Positions 6,725 to 19,708 of a DNA stretch of 64,000 bases are shown in pieces. Positions within the stretch are counted from its first letter, which is position 1. The number at the start of each line of letters is the position of its first letter. Below the pieces are notes generated by a model. That model saw nothing but the letters and a program-made list of their open reading frames with translations. It did not search any database and was not told the origin of the DNA. This DNA is from Abyssibius alkaniclasticus (GTDB lineage Bacteria; Pseudomonadota; Alphaproteobacteria; Rhodobacterales; Rhodobacteraceae): NCBI RefSeq assembly GCF_020447305.1, contig NZ_CP095732.1:1272501-1336500 (forward strand), given 5' to 3'. The translations under genes were made by a program, and so were the position numbers.

Positions 6725-7642
6725 ATGGCCATCCCCTATATCACCGCCGATATGGTTGAAGCGCGCCTGAGCTGGAGCGCGGTGGCCGATGCAATCATTG
6801 CAGGCTCCAAAGCCGCGGCACCCAAAATCGGCGACCAGTTTCTGCGCGAGGGCGACAATACGCTTTTGTCGCGCGCAGCCTGGATTGCGGGCATGGGGAT
6901 TGGTGTTAAATCGGTCACGGTGATGCCGGGCAATGCAGCCAATGGCCTGCCCAGCATCCACGGCGCAATGCTGGTTTTTGACGATGCGACCGGCCAGATC
7001 GAGGCGGTGATCGACAGCGATCTGGTCACCAAATGGAAAACGGCGGCCGACAGTCTGGCGGGCGCGCGGCTTTTGGCGCGGGCTGATGCAGCGCGGCTTT
7101 TGGTCATCGGCGCGGGGCGCGTGGCGGAGTCTGTCATCGACGCCTATCGCAGCCACTGGCCGGAACTGGATGTCATGGTCTGGGCGCGCAAACCTGCCCA
7201 GGCCGAGGCGCTGGCCAATGCCAAGGGCGCGCGCCTGGCCACAGATTTGCCGCGCGCCGTGGCGCGCGCCGATATCATTGCCACGGCGACAATGGCCAAA
7301 GAGCCCGTTCTATGGGGCGAATGGCTGCATCCCGGCCAGCATATCGACCTGATCGGCGCCTTTACCGCCGATATGCGCGAAGCCAATGATACAGCCCTGC
7401 AGCGCGCCAAAATTTTTGTCGACAGCCGGGCAACGACCGTTGGTCATATCGGCGAATTGATGATCCCGCTTGCCAGCGGCGCGATAACCGAAGCGCAGAT
7501 TCTGGGCGAATTGCCTGATCTGGCCACGGGCCGGGCCGGGCGGCACTCGGCGCAAGACATTACCCTGTTCAAGAACGGCGGTGGCGCGCATCTGGATTTG
7601 ATGACCGCGCGGCTGATCCTTGATATCTATCGCGGCGCATAG
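6725..7642 (+). CDS. Ornithine cyclodeaminase / mu-crystallin family protein
   Basis: NAD(P)-binding protein of 305 residues. The Rossmann motif VIGAGRVAESV is near residue 122. The N-terminal block, including K at VKSVTVMPGN, is typical of ornithine cyclodeaminase, alanine dehydrogenase and ketimine reductase relatives. Members interconvert amino acids, imino acids and keto acids, so the substrate here is uncertain. It lacks a good ribosome binding site and starts 3 nt after the aminotransferase stop, which suggests coupling. Its last 16 nt overlap the end of the convergent symporter-kinase gene. Confidence 0.82.
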   Translation: MAIPYITADMVEARLSWSAVADAIIAGSKAAAPKIGDQFLREGDNTLLSRAAWIAGMGIGVKSVTVMPGNAANGLPSIHGAMLVFDDATGQIEAVIDSDLVTKWKTAADSLAGARLLARADAARLLVIGAGRVAESVIDAYRSHWPELDVMVWARKPAQAEALANAKGARLATDLPRAVARADIIATATMAKEPVLWGEWLHPGQHIDLIGAFTADMREANDTALQRAKIFVDSRATTVGHIGELMIPLASGAITEAQILGELPDLATGRAGRHSAQDITLFKNGGGAHLDLMTARLILDIYRGA

Positions 7643-10311
7643 TCTGCAAGCGGCAGGCTTACGCGAAACACCGCACCGGGGGCATTGTCTTCCAGCGTCA
7701 GATCGCCATGCAGATTGCGCATGATCTCGCGGCTGATCGGCAAGCCAAGCCCGGCGCTTCCGGCCAGGGTTTCCGAGCTGAGGCGCGAAAATTTTTCAAA
7801 CACGCGCATATGTTCGTGCGGGGCGATTCCGGGGCCGTTATCGATGACGCCGATCAGCGCAAGCTTGCCAACCCTGCGCGCATGAATGATGATTTCGGGC
7901 GCGTTTGATATGCCATATTTCACGGCATTGGTAATGAGGTTGATGAACACCTGCGCCAGCCTGTCAAAATCGGCATGAACGACAAGCGGCGTTTCGGGCA
8001 TTTTTTGCACGATGCGCACGCCAGCGGCGCTGATCAGTGCCTCGGCGCTGTTCAGGGCGCGGTCGATGACCGCTTGCAGGGGCACATCTTGCAAAACCCA
8101 GTTCACGCGCCCGCTTTCCAGATGCGACAGGTCAAGGATTTCATCCAGAATCCGCGTCAGCCGCTCGCTTTCGTCGCGGATGATCCCGGCAAAACGCTGG
8201 GCCTTTTCATCTGACAGGTCTTTGGTTTCACGCAGAATTTCGGAAAACGAGCGGATCGAGGTCATCGGTGTGCGCAGCTCATGGCTGACCTGGCTGAGAA
8301 ACGCGTCTTTTTGCGCGCCAAGCTCGGTCAGCTTGGCATTGGCCTGGCGCAATTGCTGCGCGGTTTCCGCCAACTCGCGCGACTGCGCCTCGACCTGCTG
8401 CGAATATTCCATGATCTGCGCGGTTTCATCGGCAATTTTCATCAGCTCATCGACCGACACCATACCGCCCCCGGCGATCTGGCTGACCATCGCATGGGCC
8501 GATGCCCCGCCGACCGAACCGGAAAGCTCGCGCTCCAGCACCTGCACAAAGTCATCGGTCGCCTCGGGCAGGCCGCTGCTGCGGCCTTGCGCGCGGGCAA
8601 CGCGGGTGAACAGCGCATGGGCCGCATCGGCCCCCAGAATGCGCTGGGCGAGCGTGTAAAGGTCTTCCGCCGTGGCTGAACGCGCAATCAGGTAGCCGCC
8701 CGAGCCTTCGTTCAGGCGAAACACATCGACAAACTGGGTGGATTGCAGCCGCTCCAGCGGGGTGGGCGTGCTGCCAAGCGATACGGCAATGAACAGCCCG
8801 GTATTCACCGTCATCGCCCAGAACATCGAATGCACCAGATCATCGCCAAAATCCAGACCGAACAGGGTTTGCGGGCGCAGCATTTCCCAACCGAACGGGC
8901 CATTGGCCAGCGTTTGCGCGCTCAGGATGAAACCACCGTCAAAGCTGGGCAGAAACAGCGTATAGGCCCAGATGATGAAGCCGCCGATCATGCCCACCAG
9001 CGCGCCCTTGCGCGTGGCCCCGCGCCAGAACAGCCCGCCGATCAGCGCGGGCATGACCTGCGCGATGCCGGCAAAGGAAACAAGCCCGATGGCGGCCAGC
9101 GCGGTCGAACCGCCCGTCAGCCGGAAATAGAGATAGCCAAGCAGCAGCACCACCCCGATGCTGATACGGCGACTGACCAAAAGCACCTGCTTCACATCGC
9201 CCGAGGTTTGCAAAAGCCCCGTGCTGGCGCGCAGCCAAAGCGGCATGACAATATGGTTTGACATCATCGTTGACAGCGCAATCGCCGCCACGATCACCAT
9301 AGAGGTGGCCGAGGAAAACCCGCCAAGAAAGGCAAAAAGTGCAAGCATGTTCTGCCCTTCGGCCAAAGGCACCGACAACACGAACAGATCGGGGTTGGAG
9401 CCTTCGGGCAGTATTGCCCCGCCCGCAATGGCGATGGGCAGCACGAACAGGCTTATCAAGAAAAGGTAGAAGGGAAAGGCCCAGCTTGCCACGGCAAGGT
9501 GGCGCTCATCGGCATTTTCGACCACTGTCACCTGAAACATGCGCGGCAGGCAGATGATGGCCGTGGCCGACAGGAACACCAGCGTCGCCCAGCGCGGCGA
9601 AAAGATGTTTTCGGGGTGCAGCAGGTTGGGTGCCGCGCGCGAAAATATGTCAGCCGGGCCATTGGCCACGCCCCAAACCACAAAAATGCCTACCGCGAGC
9701 AGTGCAAACAGCTTTACCACCGCTTCCAGCGCGATGGCGGTCACAACGCCGTGGTGGCGTTCGTTCACATCCACATTGCGGGTGCCGAACAGAATGGTGA
9801 ATACCGCAAGGCCAACCGCAATCCAGAAGGCCGTGGCATTCGCACTGCCAAAGCCGCTTTCGCCGGTATCAAAAACCGAGAATGACAGGGTAATCGATTG
9901 CAATTGCAGCGCGATATAAGGGGTAGAGCCGACCACCGCCAGAAAAGTAACCACCACGGCCAGCGTTGGGCTTTTGCCATAGCGCGAGGAGATCATATCG
10001 GCGATCGAGGTGATGCGCTGCGCCCGGCCAATGCGCAGTATCTTGCGCAGCAGCCACCACCAGCCGATGAACACCAGTGTCGGCCCAAGGTAGATGGCCA
10101 CATATTCCAGCCCGTTGCGCGCCGCCGAGCCAACGGCGCCATAAAACGTCCAGGCCGTGCAATAGACCGAAATGGACAGCGTGTAGACTATGGGCGAGCG
10201 AAGCCAGGAAAAATGGCCGCGCGCCGCGCGCCGCTCCGCCCAGAAAGCAACCGCAAAAAGCAGGGCGACATAGGCAAGGCTGACGAAAAGCAGAGTGTTG
10301 AAATTCAACAT
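7627..10311 (-). CDS. Sodium/solute symporter-histidine kinase (CbrA/CrbS-like)
   Basis: Membrane sensor kinase of 894 residues. The first ~500 form an SSS-family sodium/solute symporter with about 13 hydrophobic segments. A STAC-like linker (about 525-600) and a coiled coil (about 630-665) follow. The DHp domain has H677 in SHELRTP, and the ATPase domain has an N box (NLITNAVKYG), G1 (DNGPGIA) and G2 (GLGLPIS). No PAS or attached receiver is visible. Characterised relatives such as CbrA and CrbS/MxtR respond to amino acids or acetate. It is the last gene of a four-gene leftward operon and begins 3 nt after the small membrane protein gene. The signal it senses is inferred from the acs context only. 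Confidence 0.88.
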   Translation of the reverse strand: MLNFNTLLFVSLAYVALLFAVAFWAERRAARGHFSWLRSPIVYTLSISVYCTAWTFYGAVGSAARNGLEYVAIYLGPTLVFIGWWWLLRKILRIGRAQRITSIADMISSRYGKSPTLAVVVTFLAVVGSTPYIALQLQSITLSFSVFDTGESGFGSANATAFWIAVGLAVFTILFGTRNVDVNERHHGVVTAIALEAVVKLFALLAVGIFVVWGVANGPADIFSRAAPNLLHPENIFSPRWATLVFLSATAIICLPRMFQVTVVENADERHLAVASWAFPFYLFLISLFVLPIAIAGGAILPEGSNPDLFVLSVPLAEGQNMLALFAFLGGFSSATSMVIVAAIALSTMMSNHIVMPLWLRASTGLLQTSGDVKQVLLVSRRISIGVVLLLGYLYFRLTGGSTALAAIGLVSFAGIAQVMPALIGGLFWRGATRKGALVGMIGGFIIWAYTLFLPSFDGGFILSAQTLANGPFGWEMLRPQTLFGLDFGDDLVHSMFWAMTVNTGLFIAVSLGSTPTPLERLQSTQFVDVFRLNEGSGGYLIARSATAEDLYTLAQRILGADAAHALFTRVARAQGRSSGLPEATDDFVQVLERELSGSVGGASAHAMVSQIAGGGMVSVDELMKIADETAQIMEYSQQVEAQSRELAETAQQLRQANAKLTELGAQKDAFLSQVSHELRTPMTSIRSFSEILRETKDLSDEKAQRFAGIIRDESERLTRILDEILDLSHLESGRVNWVLQDVPLQAVIDRALNSAEALISAAGVRIVQKMPETPLVVHADFDRLAQVFINLITNAVKYGISNAPEIIIHARRVGKLALIGVIDNGPGIAPHEHMRVFEKFSRLSSETLAGSAGLGLPISREIMRNLHGDLTLEDNAPGAVFRVSLPLADYAPR

Positions 10312-10314
10312 GGC

Positions 10315-10557
10315 CTAGCCCGGATCGTCACGCATGATGGCGCGCGCCAGCCTGCGCGCCAGCCAGATCAGCCCCAGCCAAACACCGAATACATAGACGA
10401 ATGCCGCCGGCAGGCCCAGAATGGTGCCGGCCTGCGCAAAAATCCAGATAATGGGCGAAAGCAGTAAAAACCCGCCAAGAATGGGCAAAAGCGCGGCAAA
10501 ATCCTGCCTGCGCCGCCGTTCCAGCGCACGCTGGGCCAGGTCGGGCTTGGGTTTCAT
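10315..10557 (-). CDS. Small two-helix membrane protein preceding the symporter-kinase (CbrX-like position)
   Basis: An 80-residue protein with a basic N-terminus (residues 1-20) and two hydrophobic helices (about 22-44 and 46-65) ending in a basic tail. It resembles the small partner proteins encoded beside SSS-family transporters. It occupies the place of CbrX, a small protein translationally coupled to cbrA in Pseudomonas. Its ATG shares four bases with the response regulator stop, and its own stop is 3 nt from the kinase ATG, so all three are tightly coupled. It may stabilise or tune the symporter domain (inference). Confidence 0.75.
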   Translation of the reverse strand: MKPKPDLAQRALERRRRQDFAALLPILGGFLLLSPIIWIFAQAGTILGLPAAFVYVFGVWLGLIWLARRLARAIMRDDPG

Positions 10558-10919
10558 AGCCCGACCAGCAGCCGCGCGCGCGCCACCAGTTCGGCATTGG
10601 CAAAGGGTTTGGTCATGAAAACATCCACGCCAATATCTTCGGCCATTTGCTGGTCACGCGACTGGCCCTTGGCGGTGAGCATCATCACTTTCGGTGCGAT
10701 TTGCCCTTTCAGGCGCAGATCGCGCAAAATGTCAAAGCCGCTGCGATTGGGCAGCATCACATCGAGGATCACCAGATCGGGGGCAGAGTCTGCAATGCGG
10801 GCCAATGCGCGGTTGCCGTCAGATTCGCTTTGCACGGCGAAGCCTGCGCGTTCCAGCAAAAAGGTCAGTGATTCGACGATATTCGGTTCGTCCTCAACAA
10901 TCAGGACAGATTTGCGCAC
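10554..10919 (-). CDS. Single-domain response regulator
   Basis: A free receiver domain of 121 residues with no output domain. It has the acidic pocket (E9, D10), phospho-acceptor D53 (LDVMLPNRSG), a Thr/Ser switch position in MLTAKG and the conserved Lys in FMTKPF. It lies between the XRE regulator gene (73 nt upstream) and the small membrane protein (4-nt overlap) in the kinase operon, so it is the likely target of that kinase. Characterised CbrB/CrbR partners carry a DNA-binding domain. This one does not, so the signal must pass on through another protein. Confidence 0.88.
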   Translation of the reverse strand: MRKSVLIVEDEPNIVESLTFLLERAGFAVQSESDGNRALARIADSAPDLVILDVMLPNRSGFDILRDLRLKGQIAPKVMMLTAKGQSRDQQMAEDIGVDVFMTKPFANAELVARARLLVGL

Positions 10920-10992: not shown

Positions 10993-12315
10993 TCAGCCAA
11001 CCACCTGGGGGATATCGGTAAGATAGGCGGCGCGGCTGCGCGCGTCGCAGCCTTTGCGCGGGCAAATCGCACAGGCCGTGCCAACCGCCGAAATGCCTTG
11101 GGGTTGCGGCAGCCACGCCGAAATCACCTTCAGGCTGTCATCGGGGATCAGCAGCATGGCCGCCTGATAGTTGGGGGTTTGGCCCACCGGGGCCGGCGCG
11201 GTCTGCTCGGCCAACGACAATGCGGTAATCACCGTGCCATCGCTTAGCGACAGGGCCGAAATGGCGCTGCGCTCGGGGTGGCTGAAGGCCTGAAAGATGG
11301 GCCAAAGCGCACAGGCGGCACCGTGGCGGGGCAGGGCGAAACTTTCGAGCGGCTGGCGCCAGATGGGCTGGCCTGCGGCATTGACCACCAATAGCCCGAA
11401 GCGCGGCGCGGCAATATCCTCGCGCCGCAAGGCCGCAAGCCTGCGATAGATGCGGATCTGGCTGCCGCCGAAATGCTGGCCCAGCGCATGGGGGTTATAG
11501 GCCAGGCGCGCGGCGGTGGCGGCAAATTCCGCAAGCGGCAGGGCGGCGGCATCGCCCGCATAACGCGCCAGCAGGTCATGCGCCATAGAGCGTGCGGCCG
11601 GGCTGTCCAGTTCGGGGGCGTCGGCCAGAAGCGCCGCCACACTGCCTCCGGCATCGAGCGCCGGAAAGCGATAGCCGTGCCGTTGCAGGAAACTGTCCAC
11701 CGCCTCTTCCGGCGTGGCCGCAGCGGCGGCACCTTCGCTTGCGCGGTCAAGATAGGCGCTCAGCGCCGTGGCCGCATCTGAAAGGCGGCGGCTTTCATCG
11801 TGAATGCTGCGCACAAAGCGGCGCTGCTGGTCGGGGGCAATGTCATCAACCGTGCTTAGAATGCCCGCGGTCGAGCGGATTGCCGTGATGTTCGACAGGA
11901 TATTATGCAGCGTTTCGGCCAAAAACGGATCATGCCCCAAACGATCGCTCAGCACGGTAATGGCCTCGCGCAAGTCATGGTTCTGGCGCGACAGGGCGGC
12001 CACGCTGTGCGCCCAGTCGGGAAATTGCGCGATGAACGCCTCGATCAGGCCCGGATCGATGCCGCCCTGCGCGGTGGCCACGGCGCGCAATTCGGCCAAT
12101 TGTGCCGAATCCGGCCCCTCGTTCAATGCCGAAGCCGGCAAGTGGAGCGCGCGCGCCAAAGCCTGAAGGCGCAACCCCGCGATTCTGCGTTTGTTATGCT
12201 CGATCAGGTTGAGATAGGAGGCCGACAGCCCGGCCGCGGCCGCAAGTTGACGTTGCGTGAGCCCCATTTTGCGCCGGGCTTCACGAATGCGTGTTCCAAC
12301 CAGGTATCCGACCAT
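10993..12315 (-). CDS. XRE-family short-chain-acyl regulator with an embedded histidine-kinase DHp-like segment
   Basis: Transcription factor of 440 residues. The XRE helix-turn-helix is at about 8-62 (TQRQLAAAAGLSASYLNLIE). The C-terminal half resembles the DUF2083 region of RamB/PrpR/ScfR-type regulators that respond to short-chain acyl-CoA metabolism, with a Cys cluster C-x2-C-x4-C (CAICPRKGC) near the end. Residues ~128-188 resemble a histidine-kinase DHp helix pair with His at 137; no ATPase domain follows. The frame is open to 12384, but GAGG just before the ATG at 12315 and the family start (MVGYLVG) fix the start there. First gene of the leftward operon and divergent from the transporter-acs operon, which it probably controls (inference). 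Confidence 0.82.
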   Translation of the reverse strand: MVGYLVGTRIREARRKMGLTQRQLAAAAGLSASYLNLIEHNKRRIAGLRLQALARALHLPASALNEGPDSAQLAELRAVATAQGGIDPGLIEAFIAQFPDWAHSVAALSRQNHDLREAITVLSDRLGHDPFLAETLHNILSNITAIRSTAGILSTVDDIAPDQQRRFVRSIHDESRRLSDAATALSAYLDRASEGAAAAATPEEAVDSFLQRHGYRFPALDAGGSVAALLADAPELDSPAARSMAHDLLARYAGDAAALPLAEFAATAARLAYNPHALGQHFGGSQIRIYRRLAALRREDIAAPRFGLLVVNAAGQPIWRQPLESFALPRHGAACALWPIFQAFSHPERSAISALSLSDGTVITALSLAEQTAPAPVGQTPNYQAAMLLIPDDSLKVISAWLPQPQGISAVGTACAICPRKGCDARSRAAYLTDIPQVVG

Positions 12316-12354
12316 GCGCGATCCTCTTGCTTTGCAACGGAAAAACGACACGCT

Positions 12355-12403
12355 TGTAAATAAATTTACTATTGTGCGCTGCAATATAGAAATAAGTTTA
12401 CAA
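12355..12403. promoter_or_regulatory. Candidate operator(s) in the divergent promoter region
   Basis: The AT-rich gap between the XRE regulator and the transporter operon contains a palindrome, GTAAAT-AA-ATTTAC (12356-12369). A larger inverted pair is TTGTAAA (12355-12361) with TTTACAA (12397-12403). RamB-type regulators bind short T/A-rich palindromes containing TTTGCAAA-like halves, so this is a plausible binding site for the divergent regulator. That assignment is inference. Confidence 0.5.
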
Positions 12404-12518
12404 AATAATGCAAGGAAAGCAATAATTTATTGTGAACTTCACAAACCTCCCGGCATTATACCTATGGCGCAATGCGCCCCGCCGGATAACCGGCAAGGAC
12501 AGGAATGGGAGGAAATTC

Positions 12519-13862
12519 ATGTCAAAACTAACCCTCAGCCGTCGCGGACTCATCCGCTCGGGCGCCGTTGCAGGCGCGGGGCTTGCTTTGCCCACAATTT
12601 TTACCGGCGCTGCGTCGGCCTATACAAACGAACCTACCGGCAGCGATGTCATCTTTGGCTTTAACGTGCCCCAGTCCGGCCCCTATGCCGACGAAGGTGC
12701 CGACGAGCTTCGCGCCTATCAGCTTGCTGTCAAACACCTGAACGGTGAAGGCGATGGCGGCATGATGAACACCTTCAGCGGCAGCGCGCTGACAGGTCAG
12801 GGTGTGCTTGGCAAGCGGGTCGCCTATGTCACCGGCGATACGCAGACAAAATCCGACGCCGCGCGCGCTTCGGCCCAGTCGATGATCCAGCGCGATGGCG
12901 CCATCATGATCACCGGCGGCTCGTCATCGGGTGTGGCTGTTGCCGTGCAGGCGCTCTGCCAGGAGGCCGGGGTTATCTTCATGGCCTGTCTGACGCATTC
13001 CAACGACACGACCGGCAAGGACAAGAAGGCCAATGGCTTCCGCCATTTCTTCAACGCCTATATGTCGGGTGCGGCACTTGCGCCGGTTCTGGCCAAAACC
13101 TATGGCAGCGACCGTCGCGCCTATCATCTGACCGCCGACTATACCTGGGGCTGGACACAGCAGGCATCGATGCAGGCCTTTACCGAGGCTGAAGGCTGGG
13201 AAACCGTCAACAACGTGCTGACCCCGCTGACCGCAACCGATTTCAGCTCGTATATCGCGCCGGTTCTGAACTCGGGTGCCGATGTTCTCGTGCTGAACCA
13301 TTACGGCGGAAACATGGTGAACTCGCTCACCAATGCCGTGCAGTTCGGTCTGCGCGACAAGCAGGTCAACGGCAAGAACTTCGAGATTGTTGTGCCGCTC
13401 TATTCCGAGCTTATGGCCAAAGGCGCGGGTGAAAACGTGCGCGGCATTCTTGGCTCAAGCAACTGGCACTGGCAATTGCCCGATCCGGGCACCCAGGCCT
13501 TCACCAAATCCTTTGGTGAGGAATATGGCTTCCCGCCAAGCCAGGCCGCACAAACCGCCTATGCCCAGACGCTGCTATATGCGGATGCGGCTGAACGCGC
13601 CGGCACCTTCAATCCTTGCGGGATTGTGGATGCGCTTGAAGGCTTCAGCTTTGATGGCCTTGGCAATGGCCCGACCGAATACCGTGCCGCCGACCACCAG
13701 TGCTTCAAGGATGTGCTGGTTGTGAAAGGCACCGAAGCGCCAACCTCGGAATATGATGTGCTTGAGGTGGTTGAAATCACCCCGCGCGCACAGGTCGAAT
13801 ATGACCCCGAGAACGAGTTCTTCGCCGGTGGCGCTTTGGGCGAATGTAACCCGGGCGCATAG
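12519..13862 (+). CDS. Periplasmic substrate-binding protein of a HAAT-type ABC transporter
   Basis: Binding protein of 447 residues (Peripla_BP_6 fold, LivJ/urea type). The N-terminus has a twin-arginine-like signal (SRRGLIRSG, then a hydrophobic stretch ending at TGAASA, about residue 34), so it is exported. A longer frame starts at 12432, but GGGAGG just before the ATG at 12519 and the signal peptide decide the start. It heads an operon with two permeases, two ATPases and acetyl-CoA synthetase. The family binds amino acids, amides, urea or small carboxylates. The acs link suggests a short-chain carboxylate or its precursor (inference). Confidence 0.85.
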   Translation: MSKLTLSRRGLIRSGAVAGAGLALPTIFTGAASAYTNEPTGSDVIFGFNVPQSGPYADEGADELRAYQLAVKHLNGEGDGGMMNTFSGSALTGQGVLGKRVAYVTGDTQTKSDAARASAQSMIQRDGAIMITGGSSSGVAVAVQALCQEAGVIFMACLTHSNDTTGKDKKANGFRHFFNAYMSGAALAPVLAKTYGSDRRAYHLTADYTWGWTQQASMQAFTEAEGWETVNNVLTPLTATDFSSYIAPVLNSGADVLVLNHYGGNMVNSLTNAVQFGLRDKQVNGKNFEIVVPLYSELMAKGAGENVRGILGSSNWHWQLPDPGTQAFTKSFGEEYGFPPSQAAQTAYAQTLLYADAAERAGTFNPCGIVDALEGFSFDGLGNGPTEYRAADHQCFKDVLVVKGTEAPTSEYDVLEVVEITPRAQVEYDPENEFFAGGALGECNPGA

Positions 13863-13884
13863 GTTTCCCCCTCGGGAATCACTC

Positions 13885-13917
13885 CCGGTCGCATCCTGTG
13901 TGATGCGGCCGGCTTTT
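13885..13917 (+). terminator. Hairpin between binding protein and permease genes
   Basis: Eleven bases at 13885-13895 pair with 13902-13912 (one G-T pair) around a six-base loop, followed by CTTTTCC. Such structures between a binding-protein gene and its permeases often weaken transcription or protect the upstream mRNA, giving excess binding protein. That role is inferred here. Confidence 0.5.
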
Positions 13918-13958
13918 CCGCACAAGCGGGCATAACGTAACATCGGGCGGGGAACACG

Positions 13959-15002
13959 ATGGACGCCATCTTCCTACAATTACTGAACGGTCTGGACAAA
14001 GGTTCGGCCTATGCGCTGATCGCGCTGGGGCTTACGCTGATTTTCGGCACTTTGGGCGTGGTCAATTTTGCGCATGGCGCCTTGTTCATGCTCGGCGCGT
14101 TCTGCGCTGTGACCTTCAACAATATCCTGAATATCGCAAGCGTCACGCTTGATCCGGAGCGCACCGATTTTCTGGGCAACCCGCTGAAGGTGGAAACACC
14201 CTATCTAGAAATGTGGTTTGGTGAATTCGGCAGTTGGATGATCGATTACACCGTGCCGCTGGCCATCATCGTTGCCATTCCGGTAATGATCCTGATCGGC
14301 ATCATCATGGAACGCGGGCTGATCAAGCATTTTTACAAACGCCCCCATGCCGACCAGATTCTTGTAACCTTTGGCCTGGCGATCGTGCTGCAAGAGGTCA
14401 TCAAATTCTACTTCGGCGCCAATCCCATTCCCACACCCAGCCCTGCGGCCTTCAAAGGCTCGCTCGATATCGGTGTGATGTTGGGGTTTGACCCGAATGC
14501 CGTGATCTACCCCTATTGGCGGCTGATCTATTTCTTCTTTGCGGCCATCGTCATCGGCGCGGTCTTTGCCTTCCTGCAATTCACCACCTTTGGCATGGTT
14601 GTGCGTGCCGGCATGGCCGACCGTGAAACCGTGGGCCTGCTTGGCATCAATATCGACCGGCGCTTCACCATCATGTTCGGGGTGGCGGCTGCGGTCGCCG
14701 GGGTTGCAGGGGTCATGTATACGCCTATCAACAGCCCCAATTACCATATGGGCATGGATTTTCTGGTGCTGAGTTTCGTGGTGGTCGTGGTTGGCGGCAT
14801 GGGCAGCCTGCCCGGCGCCGTGGCTGCGGGCTTCCTGCTTGGCGTTCTTGAAAGCTTCGCCTCGATGGTCGAGGTCAAGGACGCCTTTGAATCCATCGGC
14901 CTGCCCAGTATCGACCAGATTGTAATCTACCTTGTTGCAGTGATCATCCTGCTGACAAGGCCGCGTGGCCTTATGGGCCGCAAAGGCGTGATGGAGGAAT
15001 AG
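13959..15002 (+). CDS. livH: LivH-family ABC transporter permease
   Basis: Inner-membrane permease of the HAAT family, 347 residues, with about 8 membrane segments. Typical blocks are [20 protein letters not shown] near the N-terminus and [14 protein letters not shown] near residue 275. It is about 50 residues longer than usual LivH because of a polar insertion after the second membrane segment (about 57-88, containing [11 protein letters not shown]). The insertion may mark a subfamily with a different substrate. It follows the binding-protein gene by 96 nt and is 1 nt from the next permease. Confidence 0.88.
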
Positions 15003-15003
15003 C

Positions 15004-16176
15004 ATGTTCAACACGACCCGCACCAATGACCGGCTTTTGTTGACCATTGTCATCATCATGGTTCTGCTTGGCCCGATCATCCTTGCGCCCTTTGGCGCAG
15101 GCTACCCCGCGCTTTTGCAGCGTTTCGCCATTTACGGGCTGTTTGCCGTTGGCTTCAACATTCTGTTCGGCCTTACCGGCTATCTGTCCTTTGGCCATGC
15201 GGCCTTTCTGGGCGTCGGCTCTTATGCGGCGGTCTGGATGTTCAAGCTGCTGACCATGAACATCATCCCGGCGATCTTGCTGGCGATGGTCATTTCCGGG
15301 CTGTTTGCGCTGCTGATCGGCTATATCAGCTTGCGGCGTTCGGGGATCTACTTTTCGATCCTCACGCTGGCCTTTGCGCAGATGAGCTATAACATGGCCT
15401 ATTCCGTGCTGACCCCGCTGACCAATGGCGAAACCGGTCTGCAACTGGCGCTGAGCGATCCGCGCGTGCTGGACAGGGTTGAAAACGCCAACCAACTGCC
15501 GCTGACCAACCTGTTCGGGCTGGATATGAACGCCGTCTTCTGGAACCCGACGCTGCTGGGTTACCAGATTCAGTTCAACTATGGTTTCTATGTCTGCGCG
15601 GCCTTCCTGATCGGCGGGTTCTATCTGTCGATGCGCATCTTCCGCTCGCCCTTCGGGCTGATGCTGCGCGCCGTCAAGACCAACCGCACACGGCTGAACT
15701 ATACCGGCATCAACCCGCGCCCCTATACGCTTGCGGCCTTTGTGATCTCGGGCATGTATGCCGGGCTGGCGGGGGCGCTTCTGGCCAGCATGGAACCGCT
15801 GGCCGGTGCCGAGCGTATGCAATGGACAGCATCGGGCGAGGTGGTCTTGATGACCATTCTGGGCGGTGCAGGCACGCTGATCGGGCCGGTCTTGGGCGCG
15901 GGTGCGATCAAATATTTCGAAAACATCTTTTCGACCATCAATGAAAACGTGCTGCATGGCTGGTTCAGCATCTTCCCCGAATGGCTGAACAGCACATTGA
16001 GCTGGGTCTTTTCGCCCTTCTTTGGCGAAGGCTGGAGCCTGACCCTGGGGTTGCTGTTCATGCTGGTGGTTATCTTTCTGCCCGGCGGGCTGGTTGAAGG
16101 AGCGCAAAGGCTGGGCGGCTGGCTCAAGGGATTGGTCGGCAAACGCCCTGAAACCGCCACCACACCGGCTGAATAG
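15004..16176 (+). CDS. livM: LivM-family ABC transporter permease
   Basis: Second permease of the same importer, 390 residues. It has the family block [20 protein letters not shown] (about 53-72) and the EAA-like region [26 protein letters not shown] polar stretch of ~60 residues (about 138-190) interrupts the usual membrane pattern, so both permeases carry extra extramembrane material. The gene starts 1 nt after livH and ends 9 nt before livG. Substrate unknown. Confidence 0.88.
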
Positions 16177-16185
16177 GAGCGGAAG

Positions 16186-16944
16186 ATGGGCATTTTAGAA
16201 GTTCAGAACGTCAACAAACGCTTTGGTGGCCTGCAGGCGCTTTCAAACGTCAACCTCGATGTGCAGGAAGGCTCTATCCATGCGATTATCGGGCCGAACG
16301 GGGCGGGCAAATCCACCTTCCTCAATTGCCTGATCGGCAAGCTGAAACCCGATACCGGCACGGTGCTGTTCAACGGCCAGTCGGTGCTGGGCAAGAAACC
16401 CCACCAGATCAACCAGCTCGGCGTCAGCCGGGTGTTCCAGACGCCGGAAATCTTTTCCAGCCTCAGCGTATGGGAAAACGTGCTGATCCCGTGCTTTGCG
16501 CATCGTGACGGGGCGTTCACGCTGAACCCGCTGAAATCGGTCGCCAAGGATGCCGATATTCGCGCCAAGGCCGAAGAAATTCTGGCCGATGTCGGCATGT
16601 CGGACAAGCGCAACATGATCGCGGCTTCAATGTCGCGCGGCGACAAGCGGCGCCTGGAAATGGCCATGTGCCTTGTGCAGGAACCCAAGCTCTTGCTGCT
16701 TGACGAGCCGACCGCCGGCATGGCGCGGGCCGATACCAACAACACGATCGCGCTTTTGCGCGAGATCAGCGAAAAGCGCAAAATCACCAAAGTGATCATC
16801 GAACATGACATGCATGTCGTGTTTTCGCTGGCCAGCCGCATTTCGGTGCTGGCACAGGGTGCGATCATTGTCGAGGACACGCCGGAAAATATCAAAGGCC
16901 ATCCGAAAGTGCGAGAAGCCTATCTAGGGGAGGCACAGGTATGA
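16186..16944 (+). CDS. livG: LivG-family ABC transporter ATPase
   Basis: Cytoplasmic ATPase of 252 residues with Walker A (GPNGAGKST) and Walker B (LLLLDEPTAGM). The signature loop reads SRGDKRRLEM rather than the LSGGQ form, a LivG/UrtD-like variant. It pairs with the next ATPase to power the importer. Its end overlaps the start of livF by 4 nt, so the two are translationally coupled. Confidence 0.9.
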   Translation: MGILEVQNVNKRFGGLQALSNVNLDVQEGSIHAIIGPNGAGKSTFLNCLIGKLKPDTGTVLFNGQSVLGKKPHQINQLGVSRVFQTPEIFSSLSVWENVLIPCFAHRDGAFTLNPLKSVAKDADIRAKAEEILADVGMSDKRNMIAASMSRGDKRRLEMAMCLVQEPKLLLLDEPTAGMARADTNNTIALLREISEKRKITKVIIEHDMHVVFSLASRISVLAQGAIIVEDTPENIKGHPKVREAYLGEAQV

Positions 16945-17705
16945 CCCTGACCGATACAGACTATTCCAACGCGGCCTCTGAAAACCTTGGGCGGGTCGAG
17001 CCGGCCTATTTCCAGTGCCACGACATCCATGCCTATTACGGCGAAAGCTATATCGTGCAGGGCGTGAGCTTCAACATTCATGAAGGTGAGATTCTGGCGC
17101 TGCTCGGGCGCAACGGGGCGGGCAAAACCTCGACCCTGCGCGCCATTGCCCGCATGGATGACCCGGCGCTGAAACGCGGCGAGATCTGGCTCGACCATAA
17201 GCCGCTGCACGATATGAAATCGTTTCAGGCCAGCCAGTTCGGCGTGGGGCTGGTGCCGGAAGACCGGCGGATCATTCCCGGCCTGACGGTGGAAGAAAAC
17301 ATCAAGCTGGCGCAAATCGCCCCGCCTAAAGGCTGGTCGGCCGAGCGGATTTACGAGCTGTTCCCCCGCCTTGGCGAGCGGCGCAAGCAAGAGGGTGTAA
17401 CCCTGTCGGGCGGCGAGCAGCAGATGCTGGCCATTGGCCGCGCACTGGCCCGCGATGTGAAGCTGCTCTTGCTGGATGAGCCTTATGAAGGGCTTGCGCC
17501 GGTCATCGTGCAGGAAATCGAGCGCACTTTGGCGCAGATCAAATCACTCGGCATCACCACGATTATCGTCGAGCAAAACGCCATTGCAGCGTTGAAACTG
17601 GCCGATAGGGCGGTCATTCTGGATACCGGACAGGTGGTGTTTGACGGCACGGCCCAAGAGGTGCTGGACAATGAGGCGCTCCGCCAGGAATATTTGGCCA
17701 TCTAG
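16941..17705 (+). CDS. livF: LivF-family ABC transporter ATPase
   Basis: Second ATPase of the importer, 254 residues. It has Walker A ([10 protein letters not shown]), a canonical signature (LSGGEQQML) and Walker B ([11 protein letters not shown]). Compared with usual LivF (about 235) it carries ~20 extra N-terminal residues. It is followed by acs after 53 nt with no obvious terminator, which ties uptake to acetyl-CoA synthetase. Confidence 0.9.
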
Positions 17706-17758: not shown

Positions 17759-19708
17759 ATGACAAACGCAAGCTTCCCCCCCGCAACCGATTTTGCGGAG
17801 AATGCGCATATTGATGCGGCGACCTATGAAAAAATGTATGCAGAATCAATAGCCGACCCCGATGCGTTCTGGGGCAAGGCGGCGGCGCGGCTGGATTGGG
17901 TGAAAGCGCCCAAAACCATCAAGAACACCTCATTCGCCTATGAAAATGTGTCGATCAAATGGTTTGAAGATGGCGAATTGAACGTCGCCGCCAATTGCAT
18001 TGACCGGCATCTGGCCACGCGCGGCAACCAGACCGCAATCATCTGGGAGGCGGACGACCCCGCCACCCCCGCCAAGCACATCACCTATGCCGAATTGCAC
18101 GACCAGGTCAGCCGCTTGGCCAATGTGCTGCGCGCCCAGGGTGTGGGCAAGGGCGACCGCGTTGTCATTTACCTGCCGATGATCCCTGCCGCCGCCTATG
18201 CCATGCTGGCCTGCGCGCGCATCGGTGCCGTGCATTCCGTGGTGTTTGCGGGCTTCTCGCCCGACGCGCTTGGCAACCGCATCAACGATAGCGGCGCCAA
18301 GGTGCTGATCACCGCCGATGAAGCCCCGCGCGGCGGGCGCAAAACGCCGCTGAAATCCAATGCCGATGCCGCCCTTCTGCATTGCAGCGATTCCGTGCGC
18401 TGTTTGGTTGTCAAACATACCGGCGGGCAAACCACATGGGTTGCGGGGCGCGATATCGACCTGCTCGCCGAAATGGCGGCGGCCAGTGGCAATTGCGCGC
18501 CCGAAGTGATGAATGCCGAAGACCCGCTTTTCGTGCTGTATACCTCCGGTTCTACCGGCAAGCCCAAGGGCGTGGTCCATTCCTCGGGCGGCTATCTGCT
18601 TTATGCCGCGATGACCCATGAATACACGTTCGACTATCATGATGGCGATATCTACTGGTGCACCGCCGATGTCGGCTGGGTGACCGGCCATAGCTATATC
18701 GTTTATGGCCCGCTGGCCAATGGCGCGACCACGCTGATGTTCGAAGGCGTGCCAACCTGGCCCGATGCCTCGCGCTTCTGGCAGGTGTGCGAAAAGCACA
18801 AGGTGAACCAGTTCTACACCGCCCCCACCGCCATTCGCGCGCTGATGGGGCAGGGCGACAGCTTTGTGTCGGGCTGCGATCTGTCCAGCCTGAAACTGCT
18901 GGGCACGGTGGGCGAGCCGATCAACCCCGAAGCCTGGAACTGGTATAACGAGGTGGTCGGCAAGGGAAAGCTGCCCATCGTCGATACATGGTGGCAAACC
19001 GAAACCGGCGGCCACATGATCACCCCGCTGCCCGGCGCGATTGCCGCCAAACCCGGCTCTGCCACCAAACCGTTCTTCGGCGTGCAGCCGGTTATTCTTG
19101 ATGCCACAACAGGCGAAGAGCAAACTGCGACCGAGGCCGAGGGCGTGCTTTGCGTTAAAGACAGTTGGCCCGGCCAGATGCGCACGGTATTTGGCGACCA
19201 TGACCGCTTCGTTTCGGCCTATTTCGCCGATTACAAAGGCTATTATTTCACCGGCGATGGCTGTCGGCGCGATGCCGATGGCTATTACTGGATCACCGGG
19301 CGGGTTGATGACGTGATCAACGTCTCGGGCCACCGGATGGGCACGGCCGAGGTGGAAAGCGCGCTGGTCGCGCACGCAAAAGTGGCCGAGGCTGCGGTTG
19401 TCGGCTATCCTCATGCCATCAAGGGGCAGGGGATTTATGCCTATATCACCCTGATGAACGGCGTTGAGCCCAGCGACGAGCTGAAGCGCGAGCTGGTGCT
19501 ATGGGTGCGCAAGGAAATCGGCCCCATCGCCAGCCCCGACCTCATCCAATGGGCGCCGGGCCTGCCAAAGACTCGGTCAGGCAAAATCATGCGGCGGATT
19601 CTGCGCAAGATCGCCGAAAACGAGTATGGCAGCCTTGGGGATACATCTACGCTTGCAGACCCGGGCGTGGTTGACGATCTTATTACCAACCGGATGCATC
19701 GAAATTAA
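17759..19708 (+). CDS. acs: Acetyl-coenzyme A synthetase
   Basis: AMP-forming acetate-CoA ligase of 649 residues. It activates acetate to acetyl-AMP and then acetyl-CoA. The adenylate motif [11 protein letters not shown] is near residue 260. The A8/A10 regions include [18 protein letters not shown] and SGKIMRRIL. The Lys of the latter is K609, the position acetylated and regulated in Salmonella Acs. Length and motifs fit Acs well, although a propionyl-preferring relative cannot be excluded. Last gene of the transporter operon, with GATGAGGA before the ATG and a strong hairpin after the gene. Confidence 0.95.

Follow-up and report, generated by a model that had tools for sequence, protein, structure and literature searches.

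A DHp hairpin related to that of the operon's own symporter-kinase lies within an ScfR-type regulator of Rhodobacteraceae, which is probably switched by phosphate signalling

Introduction

The ScfR transcription factors, the symporter-kinases and the kinase-dead DHp domains that act as phosphotransferases are all already known. Single-domain receivers that lack an output domain are abundant, and in many cases their targets have yet to be found. Spo0B has a kinase-dead DHp and exchanges phosphate with a receiver, and we know of no DNA-binding domain in ChpT, Spo0B or PhyK. Among the ScfR proteins, PrpR and RamB use TTTGCAAA as their box. The 4Fe-4S ligands of the Mycobacterium tuberculosis PrpR (MtPrpR) are C363 and C447-X2-C450-X4-C455 (PMC6765138), and the RamB of Paracoccus uses two boxes, almost identical and separated by an 18-bp spacer (PMC10370305). 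In the latter study, Pden_1785 of Paracoccus denitrificans is placed in the ScfR network, beside two-component genes, and is not followed up there (PMC10370305). The CrbS/R system controls acs (PMC5715377, PMC9100948). HisKA kinases need an acidic residue at H+1 for kinase activity and Thr or Asn at H+4 for phosphatase activity (PMC3510030), and in Caulobacter the single-domain receiver MrrA hands phosphate to PhyK, which acts as a histidine phosphotransferase (PMC5964349).

Here we describe a locus from Abyssibius alkaniclasticus in which an ScfR-type regulator shares an operon with a single-domain receiver and a symporter-like histidine kinase. The window, that is, the whole stretch of DNA analysed, comprises 64,000 nucleotides (NZ_CP095732.1, positions 1,272,501 to 1,336,500). 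A literature search, mostly outside subscription papers, found nothing relevant on a lone DHp within a DNA-binding regulator, and nothing was found on the regulation of acs in Roseobacter.

Results

The features of the locus are listed in Table 1. Across the family, the loci share the order regulator, receiver, (small protein) and symporter-kinase, divergent from the genes for a substrate-binding protein, LivH, LivM, LivG, LivF and acs; in most of them the ABC transporter genes point away from the regulator, and in nearly all the kinase adjoins the receiver. The receiver is the sole receiver of the operon and the regulator its sole DNA-binding protein. Residues D10, D53 and K104 of the receiver are intact in 97 of 97 sequences; Pfam revealed no output domain in its 121 residues, and a DNA-binding response regulator as in CrbS/R is absent. 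For the small protein, no significant Pfam or NCBIfam match was obtained. In the kinase, HisKA and HATPase domains follow a long hydrophobic N-terminal part, and acs lies in the divergent operon. Pfam gave no symporter match in this N-terminal half at E<=1, and we read it as an SLC5-type symporter by general resemblance and following the first-pass annotation. At another locus (L186 4507-8915), a gap of 30 bp is all that separates the regulator from the kinase after it; no receiver gene intervenes, and the receiver of this genome is on another contig. A urea/branched-chain-type ABC transporter is tied to acs and the regulator across the family.

Table 1. Coordinates of the features discussed, numbered from the first letter of the window.
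Feature	Position	Strand	Basis or remark
XRE-DHp-ScfR transcriptional regulator, 440 aa	10993..12315	-	ATG at 12315; Pfam HTH_3 and ScfRs
DHp (HisKA-like) segment, residues 128-188	11752..11934	-	19/61 identities to kinase; hhalign; AF2; HisKA
H137 codon, candidate phospho-acceptor	11905..11907	-	H in 142/142 Rhodobacteraceae-type and 32/39 distant orthologues
4Fe-4S ligand cysteines C335, C415-X2-C418-X4-C423	11047..11313	-	conserved ~98%; MtPrpR pattern
Single-domain receiver, 121 aa, phospho-acceptor D53 (codon 10761-10763)	10554..10919	-	Response_reg 1.4e-25
Small protein between receiver and kinase, probably membrane-bound	10315..10557	-	recognisable in part of the loci only
Symporter-like histidine kinase, 894 aa; HisKA 668-734 (H677), HATPase 781-889	7627..10311	-	Pfam
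Divergent intergenic region, TTTGTAAA-type boxes	12316..12518	.	12397-12404 exact; 12353-12360 one mismatch
ABC transporter genes: substrate-binding protein, two permeases, two ATPases (urea/branched-chain type)	12519..17705	+	NCBIfam relatives below cut-off
acs, acetate-CoA ligase	17759..19708	+	TIGR02188 above its cut-off

The motif TTTGTAAA occurs in 33 of 52 orthologous intergenic regions, where shuffles gave 1.4 on average, and its copies are often paired, 32 bp from start to start, whereas TTTGCAAA was found in none of the 52 divergent regions. The TTTGTAAA boxes are likely to represent the operator, as predicted from the sequence, distinct from the box of PrpR/RamB, and both the ABC transporter genes and acs are likely targets of the regulator.

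The regulator has the two domains by which an ScfR protein is recognised, an N-terminal XRE HTH (Pfam HTH_3, residues 10-61, 1.6e-12) and a C-terminal ScfRs domain (residues 301-431, 4.4e-14), both above their cut-offs, although it has no RamB equivalog status (NCBIfam NF038139, 108 bits vs a cut-off of 700). Fold searches with the whole model matched only the HTH and PrpR halves, and residues 200-438 resemble MtPrpR with Z 22.6 over 235 residues and 24% identity. All four PrpR-like 4Fe-4S cysteines are kept, as the GAF-like Cys and the CX2CX4C pattern of ScfR proteins. The C-terminus is a PrpR-like acyl-CoA/4Fe-4S domain, with acyl-CoA binding predicted from the fold match, and given this half's match to MtPrpR and the agreement of its cysteines with the 4Fe-4S ligands there, the regulator has probably kept its metabolite sensing.

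Between these halves, the first-pass annotation had noted a gapless match of residues 128-188 to residues 668-728 of the operon kinase, with 19 identities in 61 and H137 facing H677. The match was reproduced exactly, and it is the top 61-residue diagonal of the two proteins; 19 identities were reached in 0 of 200 shuffles (maximum 18). BLASTP of the regulator against the operon kinase gave an E value of 7e-9 across 90 residues, and tblastn with the regulator over the whole genome recovered ScfR/XRE relatives and, as sole kinase, that of the operon (E 1.3e-5). With hhalign, 35 regulator segments aligned to 27 operon-kinase segments at a probability of 99.4% (E 2.7e-21), and the regulator DHp profile matched HK853 among solved structures at 3e-5. 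Pfam HisKA matched 24 of the 35 regulator segments at E<=0.1 (best member 8.9e-11), the window regulator alone scoring 16.5 bits, under the Pfam cut-off of 26.9. Structure prediction, proposed earlier as a check on a DHp-like hairpin, bore it out: in the AlphaFold (AF2) model, a long helix covering residues 99-128 bends at the near-invariant D129-P130 and gives way to the two helices of the hairpin (130-155 and 161-193), whose block-mean pLDDT is about 83-96 except at the end, and the isolated segment is predicted with the same fold as in the whole protein. Helical hairpins of such shape are common, and in a fold search with the isolated hairpin HK853 came first without significance, its top Z of 9.8 being shared with unrelated hairpins; this search by itself was consequently not used as proof. 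Homology in sequence and an antiparallel hairpin with the histidine on helix 1, both expected of a HisKA/DHp domain, were found, and residues 128-188 are a genuine DHp (HisKA) hairpin.

The kinase that this hairpin matches best is that of its own locus. In a DHp profile search of six genomes from six families, the neighbouring symporter-kinase came right after the regulator itself, at 1e-16 to 1e-19, and the next kinase 1.6e-7 or weaker, so that in 6/6 genomes the operon kinase was by far the best-matching one. A tree built from 104 DHp segments rests on some 75 columns and is supportive rather than proof; in it, the DHps of regulators and operon kinases stand apart from those of other kinases (UFBoot 89), and the regulator DHps form one group (UFBoot 81), with the same single exception (L293) in both cases. 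The likeness to the kinase looks closest in distant members, as between the L202 regulator, with HELRTFLTSIRSFSEIL, and the window kinase, with HELRTPMTSIRSFSEIL. The simplest reading of these sequence comparisons is that the regulator DHp goes back to a single ancient duplication, by which the DHp of the operon kinase entered an ScfR gene. Most of 198 family genomes encode an orthologue of the regulator, as do genomes from many further families of Alphaproteobacteria; in a phylum-wide sample, two matches lay outside the class, confined to the C-terminal half of the regulator family. One Rhodobacteraceae genome (G023; L211 6965-10413) has the symporter-kinase and receiver with no DHp-bearing regulator adjoining, and the receiver-kinase pair is for this reason probably the older unit.

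The exception in the tree is a 703-aa protein (L293 708-2819) near a distant regulator/kinase locus, whose DHp sits on a long branch among the regulator DHps. By eye, it appears to comprise a membrane/HAMP part, PAS, a DHp without the histidine, an ATPase-like part and a DnaQ-type exonuclease. A second DHp-bearing neighbour may thus exist.

H137 is kept in 174 of 181 regulators, and none of the other histidines outside the HTH is more than 81% conserved, in a protein that evolves fast (33-46% identity). An automatic count gave 135 receiver-adjacent loci, all with the histidine, and 24 unlinked loci, seven of them without it (Fisher p 8e-7, a value that predates the correction of linkage and treats as independent events what amount to no more than two or three losses). 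Inspection showed that five of the 'unlinked' loci are in fact linked, the receivers having long open frames, which leaves no losses in about 140 receiver-adjacent loci and seven losses in 19 unlinked ones. Thus, the free variation of H137 among orthologues that keep the operon, against which the earlier idea was to be checked, was not observed. The replacements fall into three residue groups, F in f41, Q in f117 and Y in one f82 genome, all in lineages where the regulator left the receiver-kinase operon, and these regulators retain the fold-defining residues I152, F167 and L178. Loss of the kinase was considered as the cause of the histidine loss and rejected: kinase and receiver are still present in the F and Q genomes, so it is separation from the operon, and not loss of the partners, that accompanies the loss of the histidine.

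H+1 is E or D in 126 of 142 Rhodobacteraceae regulators and mostly R, Q or A, also S, in distant members, and in the window regulator it is N138, not the acidic residue of a kinase. H+4 is S, T or N in nearly all orthologues, and the HisKA Pro at H+5 is replaced. Pfam found no HATPase (CA) domain in the regulator, the C-terminal half of which is filled by ScfRs. The first-pass annotation had described both the E/N after the histidine and the ATPase domain as missing; the absence of the latter stands, and that of the former applies only to a strict HE motif, given N138 here and the acidic residue in most Rhodobacteraceae orthologues. Together with the lack of an ATPase domain, the H+1/H+4 pattern fits a receiver-facing module for phosphate exchange or docking and not a kinase, because a receiver gene adjoins at almost all loci, H+4 remains S/T/N and regulators from beyond Rhodobacteraceae have lost the H+1 base.

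Discussion

Our findings suggest that the regulator is probably switched by phosphate signalling besides metabolites, and we infer phosphotransfer as the means. The most likely route runs from the symporter-kinase through the single-domain receiver to H137 of the regulator and on to the ABC transporter and acs genes. We therefore hypothesize, giving it slightly better than even chances on sequence grounds, that the DHp of the operon's own kinase was duplicated into the ScfR regulator and that phosphotransfer from kinase to receiver to H137 controls DNA binding. The symporter-kinase would autophosphorylate at H677 and phosphorylate the receiver at D53; the receiver would then dock on the regulator DHp as it would on that of the kinase and exchange phosphate with H137 in a His-Asp-His relay, and this exchange would alter the geometry of the regulator dimer and its binding to the divergent promoter. 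In this way, the regulator would bring together the detection of a small carboxylate at the membrane and that of acyl-CoA inside the cell. The signal may be acetate or a related carboxylate, as acs and the CrbS-type kinases indicate (PMC5715377). By analogy, such a relay has a precedent in the same class, in the transfer from MrrA to PhyK. More tentatively, at somewhat less than even odds, the His-Asp-His relay may end as a phosphohistidine on a DNA-binding protein, integrated with acyl-CoA and 4Fe-4S sensing through a DHp captured from the operon kinase. The first-pass annotation had set the acyl-CoA sensing known for ScfR-type regulators beside its phosphorelay idea; since the acyl-CoA/4Fe-4S half is also intact, the phosphate input is probably an addition to metabolite sensing and not a substitute for it. 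Against a relay speak the F, Q and Y groups without the histidine, the replaced Pro at H+5, the sub-cut-off HisKA score of the window regulator (16.5 vs 26.9 bits) and the arrangement at L186.

Other explanations for the hairpin were weighed against the relay. That its DHp likeness is a chance similarity of helices, as the unspecific fold search with the isolated hairpin (HK853 at the same Z as unrelated hairpins) might suggest, can be ruled out for practical purposes by the hhalign, HK853 and HisKA profile matches, the agreement of the six genomes on the operon kinase, the tree and the orthologues. A genuine DHp could still serve for dimerisation or docking only, the receiver or nothing binding to it and the histidine staying unphosphorylated. 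Docking without phosphorylation may be viable, because the F, Q and Y groups keep the domain, with I152, F167 and L178, and because the F and Q genomes still encode both receiver and kinase; nevertheless, the near-absolute conservation of the histidine in such a fast-evolving protein, and its loss only after the operon was split, make this account improbable.

The regulator DHp might also act as a phosphate drain, dephosphorylating the receiver or taking phosphate from it, mainly so as to tune the kinase-receiver pair, with acyl-CoA alone controlling DNA binding. The H+4 S/T/N kept where the H+1 acid is not, outside Rhodobacteraceae, is the pattern of a phosphatase-competent, kinase-dead DHp (PMC3510030), and the pair found without the regulator in G023 could have an output of its own. 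The receiver, however, has no output domain, the operon encodes no DNA-binding protein besides the regulator, and the joining of the DHp to a domain that binds DNA points to an influence on that binding, so we regard a drain as unlikely. The earlier proposal that H137 exchanges phosphate in a relay, or that the regulator pairs with the kinase, fared unevenly. The link of the regulator to a phosphorelay through H137 is well supported by the hairpin and by the histidine in about 140 linked loci, while the receiver-facing look of the DHp makes direct phosphorylation by the kinase, or dimerisation with it, the weaker option. In this last case the ATPase domain of the kinase would act on H137 in trans or the two proteins would form heterodimers, to which the common origin of the two DHp domains, the E/D at H+1 in most Rhodobacteraceae regulators and the L186 kinase adjoining its regulator without a receiver gene between them would all be suited. 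But the H+1 acid required by a kinase is lost outside Rhodobacteraceae while the histidine stays, and a receiver gene separates regulator and kinase in almost every locus; we give this explanation a rather small probability.

If the preferred relay from kinase through receiver to H137 is correct, the target of a single-domain receiver can be read from its operon, as a transcription factor that retains a copy of the kinase's docking and phospho-accepting domain. It would represent a new connection of two-component signalling to transcription, in which sensing of acetate-type carbon outside the cell, by the symporter, and inside it, through acyl-CoA, is joined in one protein, and it would apply across a major group of marine bacteria and in other Alphaproteobacteria.

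With the described ScfR regulators (PrpR/MccR, RamB, PccR), the protein shares the XRE HTH, the C-terminal acyl-CoA domain, the 4Fe-4S pattern and a similar type of operator box; it differs in the DHp between the HTH and the C-terminal half, in the receiver and kinase of its operon and in a box of TTTGTAAA and not TTTGCAAA. The use of two boxes recalls the RamB of Paracoccus, with 32 bp from start to start here and a spacer of 18 bp there. Pden_1785 is probably an orthologue of the regulator, and the accessible part of its description makes no mention of a DHp (PMC10370305). As in CrbS/R, CbrA/B and RpuS/R, with their SLC5/STAC kinases, what is read as a symporter is fused to a histidine kinase, but the partner here is a receiver without a DNA-binding domain, and the likely output is an ScfR regulator with a DHp of its own. 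In ChpT, and in PhyK with MrrA, a DHp exchanges phosphate with a receiver without kinase action (PMC3433190, PMC5964349). In contrast to ChpT, Spo0B and PhyK, the DHp protein of the present locus would itself be the terminal output.
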